NCBI GenBank assembly: GCA_029567505.1
Contig: JAKPXO010000269.1
Location: forward strand, 1 to 42,513
Length of the DNA: 42,513 nt
Reading direction: 5' to 3'
From: Acidobacteriota bacterium
GTDB lineage: Bacteria; Acidobacteriota; Thermoanaerobaculia; UBA5066
The first letter of the stretch is position 1. Every line of letters starts with the position of its first letter. Position numbers and translations under genes: made by a program. The notes under the pieces are model-generated. The model saw nothing but the letters and a program-made list of their open reading frames with translations. It ran no database searches and had not been told where the DNA came from. This document shows positions 4,187-28,267 of the stretch, in pieces.

Positions 4187-5672
<1,486 letters not shown>

Positions 5673-14400: not shown

Positions 14401-15831
14401 TCAGACCCCTCCGCCGAGCACCTTGTAGAGCGTCACGAGGTTCGCCTGCTCCGCGAAGCGGACGCCGACGGCGGCGCGCTGCGCGCCGAAGAGCGACTGC
14501 TGGGCGAAGAGGACCGGCAGGTAGGCGTCGATCCCCCCTTTGTACCGCGCGTCGGAGAGGCGGAGCGTCTCCTCGAGGGCGACGACGAGCGCGTCCTGCG
14601 CCTCCCGCTGGGCGACGAGCGTCGTCCGGAGCGCGAGGGCGTCGCTCACCTCCGCGAAGGCGGCCTGGATCGCCTTCTCGTACGTCGCGACGGCGATCTC
14701 GCGGTCGACCTTCGAGACCTTCAGGTTCGCGAAGAGGGAGCCGCTCGCGAAGAGGGGCGAGACGATCTGCGGCGCGAAGGTCCACATCTTCGTCCCGGAC
14801 TTGAAGAGGCCGTCGAGGTCGGGGCTCGAGGTGCCGAATCCCGCCGTGAGGGAGATCCGCGGGAAGAACGCCGCGCGGGCCGCGCCGATGTTCGCGTTCG
14901 CGCCGCGGAGCTGGTGCTCGGCGGCGAGGATGTCGGGCCTCCGGAGGAGGACCTCCGACGGGAGGCCGGCCGAGAGCCCCTTCGGGTCGGTCACGGCGAC
15001 GAGCCTGTCGGGGAGGAGCTCCTCCGGCACCTTCGCGCCGACGAGGAGCTCGAGGGCGTTCCGGGAGACGGCGGCTGCGCCCGTGTAGGCGGCGACGCTC
15101 GCGCGGGCCGCCTCGACCTGGCTCTCGGCCTGCCGGAGGTCGAGGTCGGAGGCGACGCCCGCCTCGCGGCTCTTCCGGATCAGCTCGAAGGCCGAGCCCT
15201 GGGCCTCGAGCGTCCCCTTCGAGAGCGCGAGGTTCTCCTCGTCGGCCGCCAGGGAGAGCCAGGTCGCGGCGACGGCCGCGACGAGCGAGGTCTGGGCCCC
15301 GCGGCGGGCCTCCTCGGTCGCGAGGTACTGCTCGAGGGCGCGCGTCTTCAGGCTCCGGAGGCGCCCGAAGAGGTCGAGCTCCCACGAGGCGAGGCCCAGG
15401 CCGACGGTGTACGTCGAGGAGACGCTCGCCACGCCGTCCTTCCCGAGGCTCTCGGGGATCCGGTACCGCTCGCCGGTCGCCTGGACACCGATCGTCGGGT
15501 TCAGCTCGGAACGCTGGATCCGGTAGAGCGCCTGCGCCTTCTGGACGTTGAGGGTCGCGACCCTGAGGTCGCGGTTGTTCGCGAGAGCGAGGTCGATGAC
15601 GGACCTCAGGCGCGCGTCGGTGAAGAACTCCTGCCAGGGGACGTCCTTCGCGGCGGGCGCGGCCGCGGCCTCGGGAGCCTCCTCGGCCGTGGGCGCCGGG
15701 GAGGCCTCCGCCGGGAAGGCGTCCGCCACGGGGAGCGGCGGCCGCTCGTACTTCGGGGCGAGCGTGCAGCCCGAGAGGCCGACGGCCGCCGCGAGGAGGA
15801 CGACGGGAAGCGTGTTTCGCGTGCGGTTCAT
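14401..15831 (-). CDS. RND efflux outer-membrane channel lipoprotein (OprM/NodT type)
   Basis: A 476-residue TolC-like outer-membrane factor. It begins with a lipoprotein signal peptide and lipobox (VGLSGC, Cys21), followed by two OEP repeats of long helices and beta strands (about 90-280 and 300-470). Family hallmarks include LRVATLNVQKAQALY, SWELDLFGRLRS and LLRRPDILAAEHQLR. It forms the trimeric exit duct for the pump encoded just upstream; the gap is 1 nt. It is last in the STAS-adaptor-pump-channel operon. Confidence 0.95.
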   Translation of the reverse strand: MNRTRNTLPVVLLAAAVGLSGCTLAPKYERPPLPVADAFPAEASPAPTAEEAPEAAAAPAAKDVPWQEFFTDARLRSVIDLALANNRDLRVATLNVQKAQALYRIQRSELNPTIGVQATGERYRIPESLGKDGVASVSSTYTVGLGLASWELDLFGRLRSLKTRALEQYLATEEARRGAQTSLVAAVAATWLSLAADEENLALSKGTLEAQGSAFELIRKSREAGVASDLDLRQAESQVEAARASVAAYTGAAAVSRNALELLVGAKVPEELLPDRLVAVTDPKGLSAGLPSEVLLRRPDILAAEHQLRGANANIGAARAAFFPRISLTAGFGTSSPDLDGLFKSGTKMWTFAPQIVSPLFASGSLFANLKVSKVDREIAVATYEKAIQAAFAEVSDALALRTTLVAQREAQDALVVALEETLRLSDARYKGGIDAYLPVLFAQQSLFGAQRAAVGVRFAEQANLVTLYKVLGGGV

Positions 15832-15832
15832 G

Positions 15833-18800
15833 TCAGTTCCCCTCCGCCGGGACGGGCGTCTCCGGCGGCGCCGCCTCGTGCTTCCTCTTCCTCGAGAAGA
15901 GGCTCACGACGACGACGTAGAAGAGCGGGATGAAGAGGACGGCGAGGAACGTCCCGGAGACCATGCCGCCGAGGACGCTCGTCCCGATCGCCTTCTGGGC
16001 GCCGGCGCCGGCTCCGCTCGCCAGGACGAGCGGCAGGACGCCGAAGCCGAACGCGAGGGAGGTCATGACGATCGGGCGGAGGCGCGTCTTCGCGGCCTCG
16101 AGCGTCGCCTCGACGAGCCCCATCCCGTCTTCCACGTAGCCCTTCGCGAACTGCACGATGAGGATGGCGTTCTTCGTCGTCAGGCCGAGGACGGTCAGGA
16201 GGCCGATCTGGAAGTAGACGTCGTTCGCCATCCCGCGCAGCGAGCTGCCGATGATCCCCCCGATGACGCCGAGCGGCAGGACGAGGAGGATCGTGATCGG
16301 GACCGTCCAGCTCTCGTAGAGGGCCGCGAGGACGAGGAAGATGACGAGGATCGAGAAGGCGTAGAGCGCGCCGGCCTGCGACTCCGACATCCGCTGCTGG
16401 TAGGAGAGGCCGGTCCACTCGTGGCCGACCCCCTTCGGGAGCTTCGCGATCAGCTCCTCCATCGCGTCCATCGCCTCGCCGGTGCTGTGCCCCGGCGCCG
16501 GCTCGCCCTGGATGTTGCGGGCCGGGAAGCTGTTGTAGCGCTCGAGGCGCGGCGGGCCGTAGACCCAGCGCCCGGAAGCGACCGCCGAGAGCGGGACGAG
16601 CTTGCCCTGCCGGTTGCGGAAGAAGAGCCGCTCGAGGTCGCTCGGGAGCATCCGGTACGGCGAGTCGGCCTGGGCCCAGACGCGCTTGACGCGGCCCCCC
16701 TGGACGAAGTTGCCGATGTAGGTGCTGCCGAAGGCCCCGGCGAGATAGCTCTGGATCGAGGGGACGGGGACGCCGAGCGCGCCCGCCTTGTCCCAGTCGA
16801 TGTCGATCTTGTACTGCGCGACGTCGGCCATGCCGTTCGGACGGACGCGCGCGAGGCGGGGATCCTGGGCGGCCAGGCCGAGGAGCTGCCCCTCGATCTG
16901 GGAGAGCTTGTCGTGGCCGAGCCCGCCCCGGTCCTGGAGCATCAGGTCGAACCCGGTCGCGACGCCCAGCTCGGTGACCGCCGGCGGCGGGAAGGCGAAG
17001 ATCATGGCGCCGCGGATCCGGGAGAAGGCGCCCATGGCGCGGCCGGCCACCGCCTGGGCCTTCAGCTCCGGCTTCTGCCGGAGGTCCCAGTCCTTCAGCT
17101 TGACGAAGACCATCCCCTGGTTCTGCCCGCGCCCGGAGAAGCCCATCCCCGAGATCGCCATGCAGGAGGCGACCGCCTCCTTCTGGTCGATCAGGTAGTG
17201 GTCGGTGACCTGCTTCTGGATCGCGCGCGTCTGCTCGAGCGTCGAGCCGGAGGGGAGCTGGACCATCGTCATGATCGAGCCCTGGTCCTCTTCCGGCAGG
17301 TACCCCGTCGGCATCCTCAGGTAGAGGAGCCCCATCAGCCCGACGATGACGAGGAAGACGAAGAGATAGCGCGCCCGCCTCCCGAGGACGTGCCGGACGA
17401 CGGCCAGGTAGAAGTCGCGGCCCTTGTAGAACGTCCGGTCGAACCAGAGGAAGAACGGCCGGAGGAGGCGGAACCCGGTCTCGGCCGCCTCGTGCCCCTT
17501 CGCGACCGGCTTCAGCAGCGAGGCGCAGAGGACCGGGGTGAGGATCAACGCCACGACGACGGAGAGGAGCATCGAGGCGATGACGGTGACGGAGAACTGC
17601 CGGTAGATGACGCCGGTCGAGCCGGGGAAGAAGATCATCGGCCCGAAGACGGCGGCCAGGACGAGGCCGATCCCGACGAGCGCGCCTGAGATCTCCTCCA
17701 TCGACTTCTTCGTCGCCTCGTACGGCGAGAGCCCCTCCTCGCTCATCACTCGCTCGACGTTCTCCACGACGACGATCGCGTCGTCGACGAGGAGCCCGAT
17801 CGCCAGGACCATGGCGAACATCGTCAGCATGTTGATCGAGTAGCCGAACAGGGCGAGGACGCCGAACGTGCCGAGGATGACGACCGGGACGGCGATCGTC
17901 GGGATGATCGTCGCCCGGAGGTTCCCGAGGAAAAGGTACATGACGAGGAAGACGAGGATGACCGCCTCGATCAGGGTCCTCACGACCTCGTCGATCGCGA
18001 CCCTCACGAAGGGGGTCGTGTCGAACGGGTAGACGACCTTCATCCCCGGCGGGAAGAACTGCGAGAGCTCCTCCATCTTCGCCTTGATCCTCGCGACGGT
18101 GTCGAGCGCGTTCGCCCCCGCCTCCTGGCGGATCGCGAAGGCCGTCGCCGGCAGGCTGCCGTAGGAGATCTCGATGTCCGGGATCTCGGTCCCGAGCTCG
18201 GTCCGGCCGACGTCGCTCACGCGCACGACCGAGCCGTCCGCGTCGTGCCGGAGCGGGATCGCCGCGAACTCCTCCGGCGTGACGAGGAGCGACTGGATCA
18301 GGATCGAGGCGTTCAGCCGCTGCCCCGGGACGGCCGGCGCCCCGCCGAACTGGCCGGCGGAGACCTCGACGTTGTAGGCGCGCACGGCCGCGACGACGTC
18401 GTCGATCGTCATCCCGAACTTCGTCAGCTTGTCCGGGTCGATCCAGAGGCGCATCGAGTAGCCGGTGCCGAAGACCTGGACCTCGCCGACGCCCGGCACG
18501 CGCGCGAGCGGAGACTCCACCTGCGAGGTGACGTAGTCGGCCAGGTCGGCGCGCGTCATGCTGCCGTCCTCGGAGAGGAGCCCGACGATGAGGAGGAAGT
18601 TGCGCGTCGACTTCGAGACGGTGACGCCCTGCTTCTGGACCGAGTCGGGCAGGGCCGGGAGCGCGAGCTGGAGCTTGTTCTGGACCTTCGACCAGGCGAG
18701 GTCCGGGTCCGTCTCCGGCGTGAAGGTGAGGGTCACCTCCGCGCCGCCGGAGGAGTCGGCCACGGAGCTGAGGTAGAGCATCGAGTCGAGGCCCGTCATC

Positions 18801-19003
18801 TTCGACTCGATGATCTGGATGACGCTGTCCTCGACCGTCTTCGCCGAGGCGCCCGTGTACTGGGCGCGGATCGTGATCGACGGCGGGGCGATCGGCGGGT
18901 ACTGGGAGACCGGGAGCTTCACGATCGCCAGGACCCCGCCGAGCATCATCGCGATCGCGATGACCCAGGCGAAGACCGGGCGCTTCAGGAAGAAGGACGA
19001 CAT
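15833..19003 (-). CDS. RND multidrug efflux pump (AcrB/MexB, HAE1 family)
   Basis: A 1056-residue inner-membrane proton-driven pump with the 12-helix duplicated layout. The N-terminus (FFLKRPVFAWVIAI, then QYPPIAPP) is HAE1-like. The proton-relay Asp pair is in GLLVDDAIVVVENV near residue 406, and the relay Lys is in GLTTKNAILIVQF near 940. Two large periplasmic loops carry the porter and docking domains. Length matches AcrB (about 1050). HAE1 pumps expel hydrophobic drugs, bile salts and solvents; the substrate here is unknown. It lies 9 nt after the adaptor gene. Confidence 0.96.
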   Translation of the reverse strand: MSSFFLKRPVFAWVIAIAMMLGGVLAIVKLPVSQYPPIAPPSITIRAQYTGASAKTVEDSVIQIIESKMTGLDSMLYLSSVADSSGGAEVTLTFTPETDPDLAWSKVQNKLQLALPALPDSVQKQGVTVSKSTRNFLLIVGLLSEDGSMTRADLADYVTSQVESPLARVPGVGEVQVFGTGYSMRLWIDPDKLTKFGMTIDDVVAAVRAYNVEVSAGQFGGAPAVPGQRLNASILIQSLLVTPEEFAAIPLRHDADGSVVRVSDVGRTELGTEIPDIEISYGSLPATAFAIRQEAGANALDTVARIKAKMEELSQFFPPGMKVVYPFDTTPFVRVAIDEVVRTLIEAVILVFLVMYLFLGNLRATIIPTIAVPVVILGTFGVLALFGYSINMLTMFAMVLAIGLLVDDAIVVVENVERVMSEEGLSPYEATKKSMEEISGALVGIGLVLAAVFGPMIFFPGSTGVIYRQFSVTVIASMLLSVVVALILTPVLCASLLKPVAKGHEAAETGFRLLRPFFLWFDRTFYKGRDFYLAVVRHVLGRRARYLFVFLVIVGLMGLLYLRMPTGYLPEEDQGSIMTMVQLPSGSTLEQTRAIQKQVTDHYLIDQKEAVASCMAISGMGFSGRGQNQGMVFVKLKDWDLRQKPELKAQAVAGRAMGAFSRIRGAMIFAFPPPAVTELGVATGFDLMLQDRGGLGHDKLSQIEGQLLGLAAQDPRLARVRPNGMADVAQYKIDIDWDKAGALGVPVPSIQSYLAGAFGSTYIGNFVQGGRVKRVWAQADSPYRMLPSDLERLFFRNRQGKLVPLSAVASGRWVYGPPRLERYNSFPARNIQGEPAPGHSTGEAMDAMEELIAKLPKGVGHEWTGLSYQQRMSESQAGALYAFSILVIFLVLAALYESWTVPITILLVLPLGVIGGIIGSSLRGMANDVYFQIGLLTVLGLTTKNAILIVQFAKGYVEDGMGLVEATLEAAKTRLRPIVMTSLAFGFGVLPLVLASGAGAGAQKAIGTSVLGGMVSGTFLAVLFIPLFYVVVVSLFSRKRKHEAAPPETPVPAEGN

Positions 19004-19012
19004 GGCGGCCCC

Positions 19013-20203
19013 TTACTTCGCCGCCGGGGCGGCCGGCCCGGTGGCCGCCGCGCCCGGCGCGGCCGGGACGAAGGGAACGGCCTTCACGTCCGCGCCGGGA
19101 CGGACCCGCTGGGTCCCCTCGACGATGACCTGATCCCCCTCGGCGAGGCCCGCGGTCACGAGCCAGCGATCGCCCATCGCGCGGCCGACCGTCAGCATCC
19201 GCTGCTCGACCTTCCCGTCCTTGCCGGCGACGAGGGCGTACGGCTCGCCCTTCGGCGTCCGGGCGACCCCCTGCTGGGGGACGAGGAGCCCGTCGGAGAG
19301 GACGCCCTCCTCGACGACGGCGCGGACGTACATGCCGGGGAGGAGGACGTGGTCGGGGTTCGGGAAGACCATCCGGAGCGTCACGGAGCCGGTGGTCGGG
19401 TCGACCGTCACCTCGCGAAACTTCAGCTTCCCCTCACGCGAGTAGGGGGTCCCGTCCTCCAGGATCAGCTTCACGCGGCTCCAGGAGGCGTCGCGGGTCA
19501 GGGCCCCGCCGTTGAGGCTCTTCTGAAGCCGCAGGAGATCGGCCGAGGACTGCGCCACGTCGACGTAGATCGGGTCGAGCTGCTGGACGGTCGCGAGCGG
19601 GACGGGCTGGTAGGCCGTCACCAGGGCGCCGACGGTCACGCTCGACCGTCCCGTCCGCCCCGAGATCGGCGCGCGGATCGGCGTGTAGGAGAGGTTGATC
19701 CGGGCGCTCTCGACCGTCGCCTTCGCGGCGGCGACGCTCGCCTCCGCCTGCTGGAGCGCCGCGACCGCGTCGTCGTAGTCCTGCTGGCCGACGGCGTGGA
19801 TCTCGACGAGGCCCTTCATCCGCTCGGCGCGCGAGCGCGCGGCCGGGAGGTTCGCCTCCGCCATCGCGAGGGACGCCTTCGCCTGCTCGAAGGCCGCCTG
19901 GTACGGGGCCGGGTCGATCTGGTAGAGGAGGTCTCCCGCCTTCACGTCGGAGCCCTCCTCGAACGTCCGCTCGCGCAGGATGCCGTTCACCTGCGGGCGG
20001 ACCTCGGCGACGAGGTACGGGTTCGTCCGGCCCGGGAGCTCCGTCGTCAGGACGACCCTCTCGGGGGTCATCGTGACGACGCCGACCTCGGCGGGTCCCG
20101 GCGGAGGGCCCGCGGCCGGCTTGCTGCAGGCCGTGCCGAGGGCCACCATCGCGAGGACGGCGCCGAGGGGAAGGGCGGAAGCGGGGAAGGAACGGGTCTT
20201 CAT
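19013..20203 (-). CDS. RND efflux periplasmic adaptor lipoprotein (AcrA/MexA type)
   Basis: A 396-residue membrane-fusion protein. The chosen ATG at 20203 has GGAG six nt upstream and gives a normal lipoprotein-like signal (MKTRSFPASALPLGAVLAMV, Cys near 26); two further in-frame ATGs lie at 20209 and 20215. The lipoyl halves (EVRPQVNGILRERTFEEG; NLSYTPIRAPISGRTG) flank a helical hairpin (about 90-165), followed by beta-barrel and membrane-proximal domains. It bridges the pump and the outer-membrane channel. The C-terminus is Ala/Pro-rich. It is second gene of the sigma54-type operon. Confidence 0.93.
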   Translation of the reverse strand: MKTRSFPASALPLGAVLAMVALGTACSKPAAGPPPGPAEVGVVTMTPERVVLTTELPGRTNPYLVAEVRPQVNGILRERTFEEGSDVKAGDLLYQIDPAPYQAAFEQAKASLAMAEANLPAARSRAERMKGLVEIHAVGQQDYDDAVAALQQAEASVAAAKATVESARINLSYTPIRAPISGRTGRSSVTVGALVTAYQPVPLATVQQLDPIYVDVAQSSADLLRLQKSLNGGALTRDASWSRVKLILEDGTPYSREGKLKFREVTVDPTTGSVTLRMVFPNPDHVLLPGMYVRAVVEEGVLSDGLLVPQQGVARTPKGEPYALVAGKDGKVEQRMLTVGRAMGDRWLVTAGLAEGDQVIVEGTQRVRPGADVKAVPFVPAAPGAAATGPAAPAAK

Positions 20204-20262
20204 GCTCATCTCCATCTCTTGAAGCGTGTCGAAAGGCATCCGCGGCGCGGGACCGGAGCGGC

Positions 20263-20571
20263 TCAGCTCGGCCGGGGGATCGGCGACGCGGCCGACCGGG
20301 CCGGCCAGTCGCGGGCGATCGACTCGACGAGAGCCTTCATCGCGCAGCCGCTCGCGACGATCGGGGCGCCGGTCTCGTGGATCAGGGCGAGGAGGTAACG
20401 CCCGGCGTCATCCACCTTCGTGACGCCGGTCAGGTCGAGGCCGGCGTCCCGCCCGCCCTCCCGAGCAGCCCGCCAGCTCTCCTCGAGGTCGCGGACCCAT
20501 GTCCCGATGAGGTCCCCCTCGAGCTTCAGTCGAACCTCCTGCTCGTAGGGCTCGATGGTGATCCTGAGCAT
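20263..20571 (-). CDS. STAS-like small protein leading the RND operon
   Basis: A 102-residue protein with the sulfate-transporter/anti-sigma-antagonist (STAS) pattern: alternating beta strands (VRLKLEGDLIG), then LDLTGVTKVDDAGRYLL before a helix, then VASGCAMKALVE. Classical anti-anti-sigma proteins have a phosphorylatable Ser in the D-S-S-G loop; here the loop reads DDAG, so regulation by that phosphorylation is unlikely. It is first gene after the sigma54-like promoter, with GGAGGA upstream of its ATG. Its target is unknown; it might modulate the neighbouring activator or the pump (inference). Confidence 0.75.
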   Translation of the reverse strand: MLRITIEPYEQEVRLKLEGDLIGTWVRDLEESWRAAREGGRDAGLDLTGVTKVDDAGRYLLALIHETGAPIVASGCAMKALVESIARDWPARSAASPIPRPS

Positions 20572-20595
20572 CGGCGGCTTCCTCCGAGTCCGCTA

Positions 20596-20613
20596 TCGCA
20601 ACCCCGATGCCCC
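20596..20613 (-). promoter_or_regulatory. Sigma54-type -24/-12 promoter of the STAS-RND operon
   Basis: On the minus strand GGCA (20611-20608) and TTGC (20601-20598) are placed so that the invariant GG and GC dinucleotides are 12 positions apart, start to start, as in TGGCAC-N5-TTGCW. The predicted start is near 20586, just before the GGAGGA of the STAS gene. The first T of the -24 box and the last W of the -12 box do not match. An adjacent sigma54 activator gene and upstream inverted repeats support the call. Confidence 0.65.
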
Positions 20614-20705
20614 GGGAGACTGGCCGAAGGTCTCACTCCAAGCCCCTGAACCCACTCGGCTAAACGGATCGGGCCGCGTTCGGGTTTCAGGCGAACGCCA
20701 GAAGA

Positions 20706-20743
20706 TTGGCGCCAAAATATTGGCACCGCGCCAACATGTTGGC
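20706..20743. promoter_or_regulatory. Cluster of TTGGC/GCCAA inverted repeats (probable activator sites)
   Basis: Three overlapping inverted repeats lie between the activator gene and the promoter: TTGGCGCCAA (20706-20715), TTGGC-N5-GCCAA (20720-20734) and the perfect 14-bp GCCAACATGTTGGC (20730-20743). They lie about 120-157 bp upstream of the predicted start, the usual place for enhancer sites of sigma54 activators. The neighbouring Fis-type regulator is the obvious ligand (inference). Confidence 0.7.
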
Positions 20744-20753
20744 ACTCAGGACG

Positions 20754-22841
20754 TCAGGCGCGGTCCGCGGCGCCCCCGCGATCTGGTCGGACGAGCCCGA
20801 GCTTCTTCAGCCGGAACTGGAGCGTCGAGCGGTTGAGGCCGAGGCGTGCGGCGGCGCCGTTCGCCCCCCCGAGCACCCACCCCGTGCTTTCGAGAACGGC
20901 GAGGACGTGCTCCCGCTCCGCTTCTCGAAGGGTCCGGGTCGGGATCGCCGGAGGCGCGCCGGAGCGCGACTTCAGTCCAACCAGCGGGACCTGGAGGACA
21001 GGGCCGGTCGTCAGGATGAGCGCCCGCTCGATCAAGTTCTGGAGCTCCCGGATGTTCCCGGGCCAGTCGTACCGCTGGAGGGCCGCCATTGTCTCGGAGG
21101 GGATCGTCTCGACCTTCTTCCGCGTCTTCCGGCCGAGCTGCTGGACGAAGTGGCGGACGAGGAGGGGGACGTCCTCCGGCCTCTCGCGAAGCGGAGGGAC
21201 GTGGATCGGGAAGACGTTCAGCCGATAGAAGAGATCGGCGCGAAACGTCCCCTCTTCGACCATCGCCTCGAGGTCGCGGTTCGTGGCGGCGATGAGGCGA
21301 GCGTCGGTGCGGAGGGTCTTCGAGCTGCCGAGCCGCTCGAACTCCCTCTCCTGGAGGATCCGGAGGAGCTTCGGCTGAAGCTCCAGCGGCACCTCGCCGA
21401 TCTCGTCGAGAAAGACGGTTCCGCCGCTCGCGAGCTCGAAGCGCCCGACGCGGTCGGAGATCGCCCCTGTGTACGCCCCCTTCTGGTGTCCGAAGAGCTC
21501 GCTCTCGAGGAGGCCCGACGGGATCGCGGCGCAGTCGAGCTTCACGAACGTCCGGCCCGCCCGGGCGCTCCGGTCGTGGATGGCGCGCGCGACGAGCTCC
21601 TTGCCCGACCCCGTCTCGCCGTGGATCAGGACCGTCGAGTCGGTCGGAGCGACCGTCTCGACCTGCCGGAGCACCCTTCGGAGCGCCTCGCTCCGGCCGA
21701 CGATCTCGTCGAAGCTCATCTCGCTGCGGATCTCGTCCTCGAGGTAGAGCTTCTCCCGCGCGAGCTGGTCCTTCAGCCCGGCGATCTCGCGGTAGGCGAG
21801 GGCGTTGTCGAGGGCGGTGGCCACCTGCCCCGCGACCTGGGCGAGGAGGTCCACCTCGTCGGCGTCGAACCGGGTTTCGTCCCGCCGACCCACCGTGAAG
21901 AAGCCGAGAGCCCTGCCTCGCGAGACGAGCGGGAAGGTCCAGCCGTGCCGGATCCCCTCGGCCCGCGCCACGTCCGAGCCCGGCGTCCCCTCGCGGTCGA
22001 CCGCGAGCTCCCGCGGTCGGCTCGAACGGAGAAGCTCCTCGACCGCGTCGCGGCGGACCGGGATCTCGGCCCCTTCCTTCACGAACCCGCGCCCCTCGGG
22101 GAAGTCGAGGACGTGGAGCCGCGCCCGGCTCCTTTCCGCGTCGAGCAGGATGACGCTCGCGACGTCGCACCGGAGGACCCTTCGGACGTTCGCGGAGATC
22201 GCGCGGAGGAGCTCTTCCAGGTCGAGGTTCGCGAGGACGGCGCTGCCCACCTCGAGGACGAGCCGGAGCCGCTCGCTGCTCCGCTCGAGCCTCTCGTGGG
22301 CGACCCGGACCCGCTCGAAGCTGGCCGCTCCTCCGATGGCCAGCGCGACTTGGTCGGCGACGACGGACAGGAACTCCGTCTCGGCCTCGTCGTACTCCAA
22401 CGGACGGAAGCTCCCGAAGGTCAACGCGCCGACCGGGCGGCCCGCCGAGAGAAGCGGGACGGCGAGGTAGGAGCGGATGCCGTGCCGCTCGAGCACCGCC
22501 TCGAGCCTCGGAAACGAGGGCTGCCCCGCAGGAGGGGGCCAGGCCACGACACGCCGGTTCGCGGCGACCCAGGCCTCGACGGTCTCTTCGAGCGGGATCG
22601 ACTCCGGCACCGCGACGATCGCCTGCTCGTCGACCCGCCAGACCTTCCAGGTCGGGCCTCGCCCGGGAACGTCGCCCAGGTAGAGGCTCATGAAGTCGAA
22701 CGTGGCGATCTGCCGGAGCTCGCGCGCGAGGCGCCCGACCAGCTCCGCGGGGTCGCGGATGACGCCCAGGACGTTCGAGATCCCGAGGAGCGCCCGGTAG
22801 CGCTCCTCCCGGGAGACCGTCGGGACCGGGTCGTCGCTCAT
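20754..22841 (-). CDS. Sigma54-dependent activator, GAF-GAF-AAA+-Fis
   Basis: A 695-residue enhancer-binding protein of FhlA-like layout. It has two GAF domains (about 15-175 and 195-345), a short coiled coil, an AAA+ domain with Walker A GETGSGKE (408-415), the sigma54-contacting loop GAYTGA (455-460, Tyr in place of the common Phe), Walker B FLDEIG (477-482) and FRADLFYRL (533-541), then a C-terminal Fis helix-turn-helix (about 637-681). GAF domains usually bind a small ligand, so it probably activates efflux in response to a metabolite or toxicant. It lies immediately upstream of the inverted-repeat cluster and the STAS-RND operon. A TATGCT element at 22871-22866 could be its own -10. Confidence 0.95.
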   Translation of the reverse strand: MSDDPVPTVSREERYRALLGISNVLGVIRDPAELVGRLARELRQIATFDFMSLYLGDVPGRGPTWKVWRVDEQAIVAVPESIPLEETVEAWVAANRRVVAWPPPAGQPSFPRLEAVLERHGIRSYLAVPLLSAGRPVGALTFGSFRPLEYDEAETEFLSVVADQVALAIGGAASFERVRVAHERLERSSERLRLVLEVGSAVLANLDLEELLRAISANVRRVLRCDVASVILLDAERSRARLHVLDFPEGRGFVKEGAEIPVRRDAVEELLRSSRPRELAVDREGTPGSDVARAEGIRHGWTFPLVSRGRALGFFTVGRRDETRFDADEVDLLAQVAGQVATALDNALAYREIAGLKDQLAREKLYLEDEIRSEMSFDEIVGRSEALRRVLRQVETVAPTDSTVLIHGETGSGKELVARAIHDRSARAGRTFVKLDCAAIPSGLLESELFGHQKGAYTGAISDRVGRFELASGGTVFLDEIGEVPLELQPKLLRILQEREFERLGSSKTLRTDARLIAATNRDLEAMVEEGTFRADLFYRLNVFPIHVPPLRERPEDVPLLVRHFVQQLGRKTRKKVETIPSETMAALQRYDWPGNIRELQNLIERALILTTGPVLQVPLVGLKSRSGAPPAIPTRTLREAEREHVLAVLESTGWVLGGANGAAARLGLNRSTLQFRLKKLGLVRPDRGGAADRA

Positions 22842-22914
22842 CGGCGCGTCGCGTTCCGCGGAGCCAGCATATCCGGACGCCTGCCTCGCGGCGCGAGGCT
22901 CCGCCGCCTCGACG

Positions 22915-23883
22915 TCAGGGCTGGGGCATCAGGGCCCGGGCTTCGTCCGAGTACTTGATGATCGCCTCGCCTTTCAGCTTCTCGACGTACTCGGCGAGCT
23001 TCTTCTGGAACTGCGTTTCCTGCTCCTTCCGCAGGATCTCCCCCTTCGCCTCGGCGAAGGGACGATAGCCGGCGGGGATCTTCTCGACGACCTTCAGGAC
23101 GTGCCATCCCGACTTCGTCTCGATCGGGTCCGACACGCCGCCGGCGGGAAGCGAGAACGCGGCGGCGTCGAGCGCCGCGGCGAGCTCACCGCGGCCGAAC
23201 GTCCCCATGTCGCCACCCTTGGAGCGCGTGGGTCCGTCGGAGAAGCGGACCACGACGTCCTCGAACCGCGCGCCCCCCTTCACGAGGGACGCGGCCTCGC
23301 GGGCCTTCTCCTCCGCCCCGGGCCCCGCATTGACGAGGATCTCCGAGACGCGGACCTTCTCGGGGACGGCCCACGTCTCCTTCTGCCTCTCGTAGACGAG
23401 GCGGAGGGCGTCGTCGGAGAGGTCGACGCGGCTGTTGACCTCCCGGCCGACGACGCGCTGGATCGTCGAGGTCCGTTTCAGCTGCTCGCGGAGCTTTGCC
23501 GGAGTCAGGTTCGACGCGGCCAGCGCGCGGACGAACTCCTCCTCCGAGGCGAGGTTGTTCTGTTCCTTCAGGTGCTTCACCTGCTCCTCGACCTCGGCGT
23601 CCGTCGCCACGAGGTCCAGGTCCCGTGCCCGGTCCTCGAGGAGCGATTCGTCGACGAGCTCCTTGAGCGCCGCTCGCCGGAGGTCGTCGCGGCGCCCCTG
23701 GTCGAGGTCGGGCGGGGCCTCGGCGAGGACGGCCCGCACCCGGTCGTCGAGCTGGCTCTGCGTGACGATCCGCCCGTTCACGTGGACGAGGATCTGTTCG
23801 AGGACCTCGGCGCCCGCGGGGAGCGCGAGGGCGGCGAGGAGGGCGAGGACGGCGGTGCCGGGACGGCGTCGGTGGAACGTCAC
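22915..23883 (-). CDS. SurA-like periplasmic peptidyl-prolyl isomerase
   Basis: A 322-residue protein with a signal peptide (about 1-25, LLAALALPAGA), an N-terminal SurA-type chaperone region (about 28-165, beginning EQILVHVNGRIVTQSQ), one parvulin domain (about 170-265, with VSEILV, FSDGPTRSKGGDMGTF and KSGWHVLKV), and a C-terminal helix. It assists folding of outer-membrane proteins. SurA of E. coli has two parvulin domains; one is seen here. The GTG start overlaps the upstream stop (GTGA). Confidence 0.92.
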   Translation of the reverse strand: MTFHRRRPGTAVLALLAALALPAGAEVLEQILVHVNGRIVTQSQLDDRVRAVLAEAPPDLDQGRRDDLRRAALKELVDESLLEDRARDLDLVATDAEVEEQVKHLKEQNNLASEEEFVRALAASNLTPAKLREQLKRTSTIQRVVGREVNSRVDLSDDALRLVYERQKETWAVPEKVRVSEILVNAGPGAEEKAREAASLVKGGARFEDVVVRFSDGPTRSKGGDMGTFGRGELAAALDAAAFSLPAGGVSDPIETKSGWHVLKVVEKIPAGYRPFAEAKGEILRKEQETQFQKKLAEYVEKLKGEAIIKYSDEARALMPQP

Positions 23884-24739
23884 GGCGCGGAGTCTAGCGA
23901 AAAGCGGGCCGCCCCCCCGACGTAGGGGAACGGGAGGTGCTCCTCGATGACGCCCACGCGATGCCGCTTGCGGGCCTCGGCGAGGAGCCGCTCCAGCGCC
24001 TCGCTGCTCCGCTTCTCGGACAGCGCCAGCCGGAGCGCCGGCCGCGCCTCCTCGAACGGGACGACCCGCCCGTCCGCCCGTTCATCCACCCGGAACAGAT
24101 GGACCCCGTGACCGGCCGGCTGGGGCGGGCTCACCCCTCCGGCCGGCAGCCCCCAGATCGCCTTCTCGAACTCGCTCGGCAGGTCGGTGCGCGAGAGCCA
24201 GCCGAGCCCTCCGCCCGACGCCGCGTTCGGGGCGCGGCTCGCCTCCCGGGAGACCTTCTCCCACGCCTCTCCGGCAAGGACCCGCCGGCGCGCCGTCTCG
24301 GCGGCGGCCCTGTCGGGAAGGATCATCTGCGAGAGCCTCACGAGCGGCGGGTGCTCCCAGCGCGCGGGCTCCGCGTCGTACTCGGCGCGCAGCTCGGTGT
24401 CGGTGATCTGCTCGAGGCGCGCCGCCCGGGCGAGGACCTCGGCCCGTCTCTCGGCCGCCGTCTTCCCGCGCGGCGAGGGCTCCGCCTCGGCGACGGCCCG
24501 CTCGAGGAGGCGTTCCTCGAGGTACTGGTCGAGGAGGCTCGAGGCGACCTGGGGGGAGACCTGGCCGAGGCCGGCGCCTGCGGCGGCGCGGACGTAGTTC
24601 TCGAAGTCCTCCTCCTCCACCGGCTCGTCGCCGACCATCGCGACGACCGAGGTCCGCGCGGCGGCCCGGGGCCCCTTTCGAGCGCATCCGGAAAGGGCGA
24701 GGGCCGCCACCAGAGGGACGAGGACCAGGGCGCCCCTCC

Positions 24740-24743
<4 letters not shown>
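23880..24743 (-). CDS. Parvulin-type peptidyl-prolyl isomerase lipoprotein
   Basis: A 287-residue lipoprotein. GTG 24743 overlaps the mfd stop (GTGA) and gives a signal peptide with lipobox ALSGC (Cys20). A SurA_N-like helical region (VAMVGDEPVEEEDFENYV onward) precedes a parvulin domain (about 150-245) with VRLSQMILP, GGGLGWLSRTDLP and HGVHLFRVDE. This is a PrsA/PpiD-like foldase, anchored to a membrane on the periplasmic side. It is coupled to both mfd and the SurA-like gene. The tail after about 255 is short and has no recognised domain. Confidence 0.88.

Positions 24744-28267
<3,524 letters not shown>

Follow-up and report, generated by a model that had tools for sequence, protein, structure and literature searches.

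Which protein reads the cluster of TTGGC and GCCAA inverted repeats found in the window (the whole 42,513-nucleotide stretch of acidobacterial DNA that was analysed), and what might it control? The cluster lies 10 bp past the stop codon of a gene encoding a sigma-54 activator, and upstream of a run of STAS, adaptor, RND permease and channel genes; all five genes lie on the minus strand. Sequence reading over 19000-22500 together with a repeat search revealed an 18-bp repeat present three times, at 20695, 20709 and 20728 (spacings 14 and 19). Its conserved core is a 14-bp palindrome GCCA-N6-TGGC in three non-overlapping copies, with 14 and 19 bp between centres. We term these UAS units, assigned to neither strand. 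Unit 1 (GCCAGAAGATTGGC, 20697-20710) is nearest to the predicted promoter and has a counterpart in five other genomes. Unit 2 (GCCAAAATATTGGC, 20711-20724) directly abuts unit 1, as it does in all six arrays that have three perfect units. Unit 3 (GCCAACATGTTGGC, 20730-20743) is the farthest from the promoter, separated from unit 2 by 5 bp; the corresponding linker of the other five arrays measures 3 to 5 bp.

The preliminary description had seen three overlapping inverted repeats formed by four half sites in 38 bp from 20706. The three strings it gave are all present in the sequence, while its count, start and register need correction. There are five exact half sites in 20706-20743, starting at 20706, 20711, 20720, 20730 and 20739, and the array begins further to the left, at 20697, with GCCAG. 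Only GCCAACATGTTGGC among the three strings is a complete unit; TTGGCGCCAA is the junction of the abutting units 1 and 2 and no unit itself, and TTGGC-N5-GCCAA is the joint of units 2 and 3 across the 5-bp linker. The latter string also equals the consensus of vertebrate nuclear factor I, a likeness that is irrelevant in a bacterium.

On the minus strand the array is followed by a predicted sigma-54 -24/-12 promoter (GGGCATCGGGGTTGC, 20598-20612), then by GGAGG (20581-20585), which sequence reading and alignment indicate is likely the ribosome-binding site of the STAS gene, and then by the STAS start codon. The promoter has the form GGCAYC-N4-TTGC. Its -24 element GGGCAT deviates from the TGGCAC of the consensus TGGCAC-N5-7-TTGCT quoted in a passage of PMC12316311, and 8 of 12 positions agree with the consensus. 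The GGCAYC-N4-TTGC motif, with the GG-N10-GC spacing of a -24/-12 promoter, is present in all seven orthologous regions (see below); among 5000 shuffles of each region, 1 to 9 produced a match. A search of 20540-20800 found neither a sigma-70-like promoter nor a terminator. The genome carries a sigma-54 gene on contig C495 (PF04552, E 1.7e-44). In the window the distances from the -24 GG to the three unit centres are 92, 106 and 125 bp. The palindromes are repeated and lie upstream of the promoter, as is usual for such sites, and the nearest centre falls just below the range of 100-250 bp described for most sites in part of PMC6615313.

The activator (20754-22841, minus strand, 695 aa) is a bacterial enhancer-binding protein of the organization GAF-GAF-AAA+-Fis helix-turn-helix, assigned by domain profiles and motifs, and is predicted to bind the array. 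The Pfam GAF, Sigma54_activat and HTH_8 profiles all score above their cut-offs, and there are two GAF stretches. The motifs GAYTGA, GETGSGKE, GGTVFLDEI and FRADLFYRL provide the loop, Walker A, Walker B and arginine finger. Both domains and motifs are those of group 3 of these activators, to which NorR, NifA and FhlA belong in the scheme outlined in PMC7175178, where pairs of D domains bind the UAS sites. The loop reads GAYTGA in the window and GAFTGA in the five other full-length orthologs. The Walker B pattern matched three of the six full-length orthologs, the window's included, and missed those of genomes G001, G010 and G008; a fragmentary ortholog in G013 shows the arginine finger only. 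The recognition helix NRSTLQFR[LM]K[KR]LG[LI] is present in all seven orthologs. Among NCBIfam models the best-scoring is FhlA (NF011958) at 521.8 bits, below its cut-off of 830, and the NorR model (NF003451) scores 374.8 bits, below its cut-off of 476. Directly upstream of the activator gene are two genes for PpiC/SurA-type peptidyl-prolyl isomerases (22915-25715). An open frame equal in length to the nearer of these (322 aa) precedes the activator in G011 and G012, a match of length only.

The first gene of the predicted target operon encodes a small STAS-like protein of 102 aa (20263-20571, minus strand; Pfam STAS_2, E 0.00019, 22.0 bits, below the cut-off of 29.2). It is followed, on the same strand, by genes for an RND periplasmic adaptor (19013-20239; TIGR01730), an RND permease of AcrB type (15833-19003; TIGR00915 and NF000282) and an outer-membrane efflux channel (14401-15831; TIGR01845), with all four models above their cut-offs. 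Of 147 genomes of the class, the same 7 that hold the activator orthologs gave a match to the STAS protein, G011 giving two. Pfam checks of the downstream genes covered G001, G008 and G010, and the adaptor and permease were matched in all three. The STAS protein of G008 is below the Pfam cut-off (E 5.8e-05), and that of G001 has no Pfam match yet aligns with the other STAS proteins. The channel was matched in G008, and the frame chosen in G001 is without a match. In G010 the STAS gene has AAG where the other orthologs have their ATG start (locus L136, 2818); it may begin at the next CTG.

The activator has orthologs in six further genomes among the matches listed for the 14 genomes of the family. 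Five are full-length, with identities of 93% (G011), 89% (G012), 67% (G010), 66% (G001) and 64% (G008), and the fragment in G013 is 79% identical over residues 516-690. Loci L041, L042 and L043 have the same identities and sites as G011, G012 and G001; they appear to represent these genomes and were not counted as extra ones. At six of the seven loci, that of the window included, there are exactly three perfect units, of which one pair always abuts. The second linker is 5, 5, 5, 4, 4 or 3 bp. The centre of the nearest unit lies 92, 92, 92, 94, 95 or 93 bp from the -24 GG, and the ranges for the three centres are 124-127, 106-109 and 92-95 bp. The outer units are thus 31-33 bp apart, i.e. about three helical turns. 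Perfect arms were found in 18 of 18 units tallied over these six loci (G008 being excluded from the tally), a count that is partly so by construction because the units were chosen with the motif itself. What is independent of the motif is the choice of the loci, made by orthology of the activator, and the outcome of aligning the six arrays: the invariant columns are the arm bases, together with one G next to the arms and outside the units. The central six bases vary, being AT-rich in some arrays and GC-rich in others. The preliminary description had proposed that sharing of half sites gives different spacings of one recognition element. The six-locus comparison reveals discrete units of constant interior in which one linker alone varies, and a model of overlapping or shared half sites is therefore rejected. 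This alters the choice of mutants, which should be made in the arms of three separate 14-bp units rather than in shared half sites.

G008, with the lowest identity (64%), has a degenerate array and retains the promoter motif. Of its units one is perfect, two carry a single mismatch and one carries two; the distances to the -24 GG are 118, 100, 67 and 88 bp. Within the order, 6 of 19 genomes have the triple array, each time directly after the activator ortholog, and in a sample of the phylum 2 of 396 genomes have it, both at these orthologous loci. The seven family genomes whose top match to the activator falls short of E 1e-120 lack it. The pair pattern occurs in 7 of 14 family genomes, six of them at the orthologous loci and G008 as the seventh; there the three pair matches are away from the activator, and a reversed-pattern control gave 12. 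For more distant activators 115 loci (L011 to L120 and L136 to L140) were scanned with a helix pattern, which recognised 12 distinct non-ortholog loci, including a G011 paralog (L025, the same as L140). None of these 12 showed GCCA-N6-TGGC in the 350 bp that follow the stop codon, a result that says little on activators at large because loci missed by the pattern were dropped.

Could the array be a chance or compositional repeat? The GC-rich genome and a lone GCCA-N6-TGGC at 17802 within the RND permease gene speak for this; shuffles of the window average 0.33 units, and we take that lone unit as chance. The 182-bp intergenic region has three units, and at least two were reached in none of 20,000 dinucleotide shuffles. 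In the whole genome (5.14 Mb, 96% complete) this array is the sole place with a unit pair within 30 bp (reversed-pattern control 0). An abutting pair with up to two mismatches gave two additional matches, each with two mismatches (control 0). TTGGC-N0-12-GCCAA occurs at four places, two of them in this array (reversed control 30), and GCCAA-N0-12-TTGGC at six, again with two in this array (reversed control 24); further lone matches to the latter are on contigs C103, C292, C303 and C325. Lone matches on C341 and C232 were read in context; no exact GCCA-N6-TGGC occurs within 200 bp of either. On C341 a unit with a single mismatch stands at 5355, and the lone match is near a contig end and is spanned by no open frame of 150 codons. 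The C232 match sits within open frames of coding size. A search of plasmids with the intergenic DNA gave no match. The concern raised with the preliminary description, that the motif might be frequent and randomly placed in the genome, is not borne out by these TTGGC/GCCAA and unit-pair searches. Chance has a negligible probability and is refuted by the conservation of the array, which is kept in six genomes.

Pump operons are frequently under the control of repressors, and binding by the adjacent protein is a prediction; the palindromes might therefore be operators of another regulator, e.g. a dimeric repressor of the pump, with the neighbouring activator using other sites. We consider this improbable. 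The triple follows activator orthologs in six genomes, the position of the three units, 92 to 125 bp ahead of a -24/-12 motif, fits an activator, and none of the six other neighbouring genes scanned within 14401-25715 encodes a DNA-binding regulator. The inverted repeats could also act as RNA: the activator mRNA would end in hairpins that serve for termination, attenuation or stability. Transcribed from the minus strand, the window array (67 nt) does fold at -28.2 kcal/mol (z -3.70), with 1 of 200 shuffles as good. However, of the 18 units only 7, 10 and 10 have Watson-Crick pairs at positions 5/10, 6/9 and 7/8 (G-U pairs uncounted), and therefore a stem past four pairs is not kept. Moreover the terminator-like site looked for was not found, and the distance from array to promoter is nearly fixed. 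RNA hairpins as the main role are thus very improbable, though a side role is conceivable.

The analysis directly shows the sites and that they are conserved, a promoter-like sequence, the geometry, the order of the genes and a sigma-54 gene. From these we infer, with high confidence, that the adjacent sigma-54 activator uses the array as its upstream activating sequence, in a local switch for the STAS-RND genes. The enhancer role for the neighbouring AAA+/Fis protein put forward in the preliminary description is thus retained, shorn of its half-site sharing. Dimers of the activator would bind the three palindromes via the C-terminal Fis-type helix-turn-helix, and three adjacent dimers should favour assembly of the AAA+ hexamer, as for NorR. 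Reception of a signal by the GAF domains would render the hexamer active. It could then contact sigma-54 polymerase at the -24/-12 promoter, some 90 to 125 bp away, via looping of the DNA, and open the promoter. The STAS protein, adaptor, RND permease and channel would then be expressed, probably by transcription as a single operon.

A diverged relative of this system is found in G011. A paralogous activator on contig C664 has 61% identity, and its helix is KRTTLQYRMKKLGI compared with NRSTLQFRLKKLGL. At this locus (L140, 3490-4030) the activator gene is followed by related palindromes, GCC-N8-GGC, by a -24/-12 motif and by a STAS gene that is frameshifted and truncated, and runs into another reading frame. 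On contig C251 a STAS paralog (L159, 2885-3214; 47% identity, without Pfam match) is followed by a MlaE permease (PF02405, E 5.3e-82) and then an ABC ATPase. The DNA ahead of the C664 and C251 STAS regions aligns at 84%, and the two share the palindromes GCCGAATAGCYGGC and GCCRAACAGTCGGC, about 124 bp apart, together with a -24/-12 motif. Comparison of the sequences suggests that half site and helix have changed together, in a single case with few sites; the contrast is weak because the sites are about 124 bp apart and the C664 STAS gene is frameshifted. Since the G011 paralog heads a gene run of MlaE-type ABC transport, an MlaB-like role is suggested for the STAS-like protein. It is conceivable, if rather unlikely, that there is an envelope circuit in which either RND efflux or lipid transport is steered by MlaB-like STAS proteins together with paralogous activators whose half sites have diverged (GCCA/TGGC and GCCR/YGGC). 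If true, the two systems would form a natural pair from which the reading of a site by the Fis helix could be decoded.

The NorR motif is GT-N7-AC. Sections of PMC2941729 report that the norVW enhancer of E. coli has three NorR sites, which are essential and act as a scaffold for the oligomer. As in the present system, NorR is a GAF-AAA+-HTH activator whose gene lies beside three sites that precede a sigma-54 promoter. By contrast, the present activator has two GAF stretches, misses the cut-off of the NorR model, and has efflux pump genes downstream. The GcsR system of Pseudomonas aeruginosa also has three tandem palindromes upstream of an RpoN promoter (gcvH2), bound there by the activator, but these are 18-bp TGTAACG-N4-CGTTCCG sites and the regulator is TyrR-like (PMC4894688, in part). 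FhlA gives the best NCBIfam model for our activator and is likewise a GAF protein of group 3 (PMC7175178), although the activator is below the FhlA cut-off, and a portion of PMC6615313 likens FhlA sites to TGT/ACA repeats that have a spacer of 10-12 bp.

Literature searches gave no paper on this activator family or system among the matches listed. The strings GCCA and TTGGC are absent from the main text of PMC4641369 as available, where the motif logos are figures. Together with PMC6615313 it covers reconstructed sigma-54 regulons of Clostridiales and Desulfovibrio, i.e. of phyla other than that of the window, and activator genes in it are co-localised with sigma-54 promoters. To an activator family without a paper among the matches listed, the present analysis gives a predicted binding site, promoter and target, with clear predictions at the level of single bases. 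In the Clostridiales regulons, as summarized in parts of PMC6615313, 170 of 263 activators have a single operon as their target, more than one UAS site is present in 32 of 39 groups, and the sites are mostly placed 100-250 bp ahead of the promoter. The present array fits this comparative picture in another phylum, and the kind of system is therefore already known; it is most likely an ordinary, well-conserved bacterial control region, in which the STAS partner and the diverged paralogous system come less expected.
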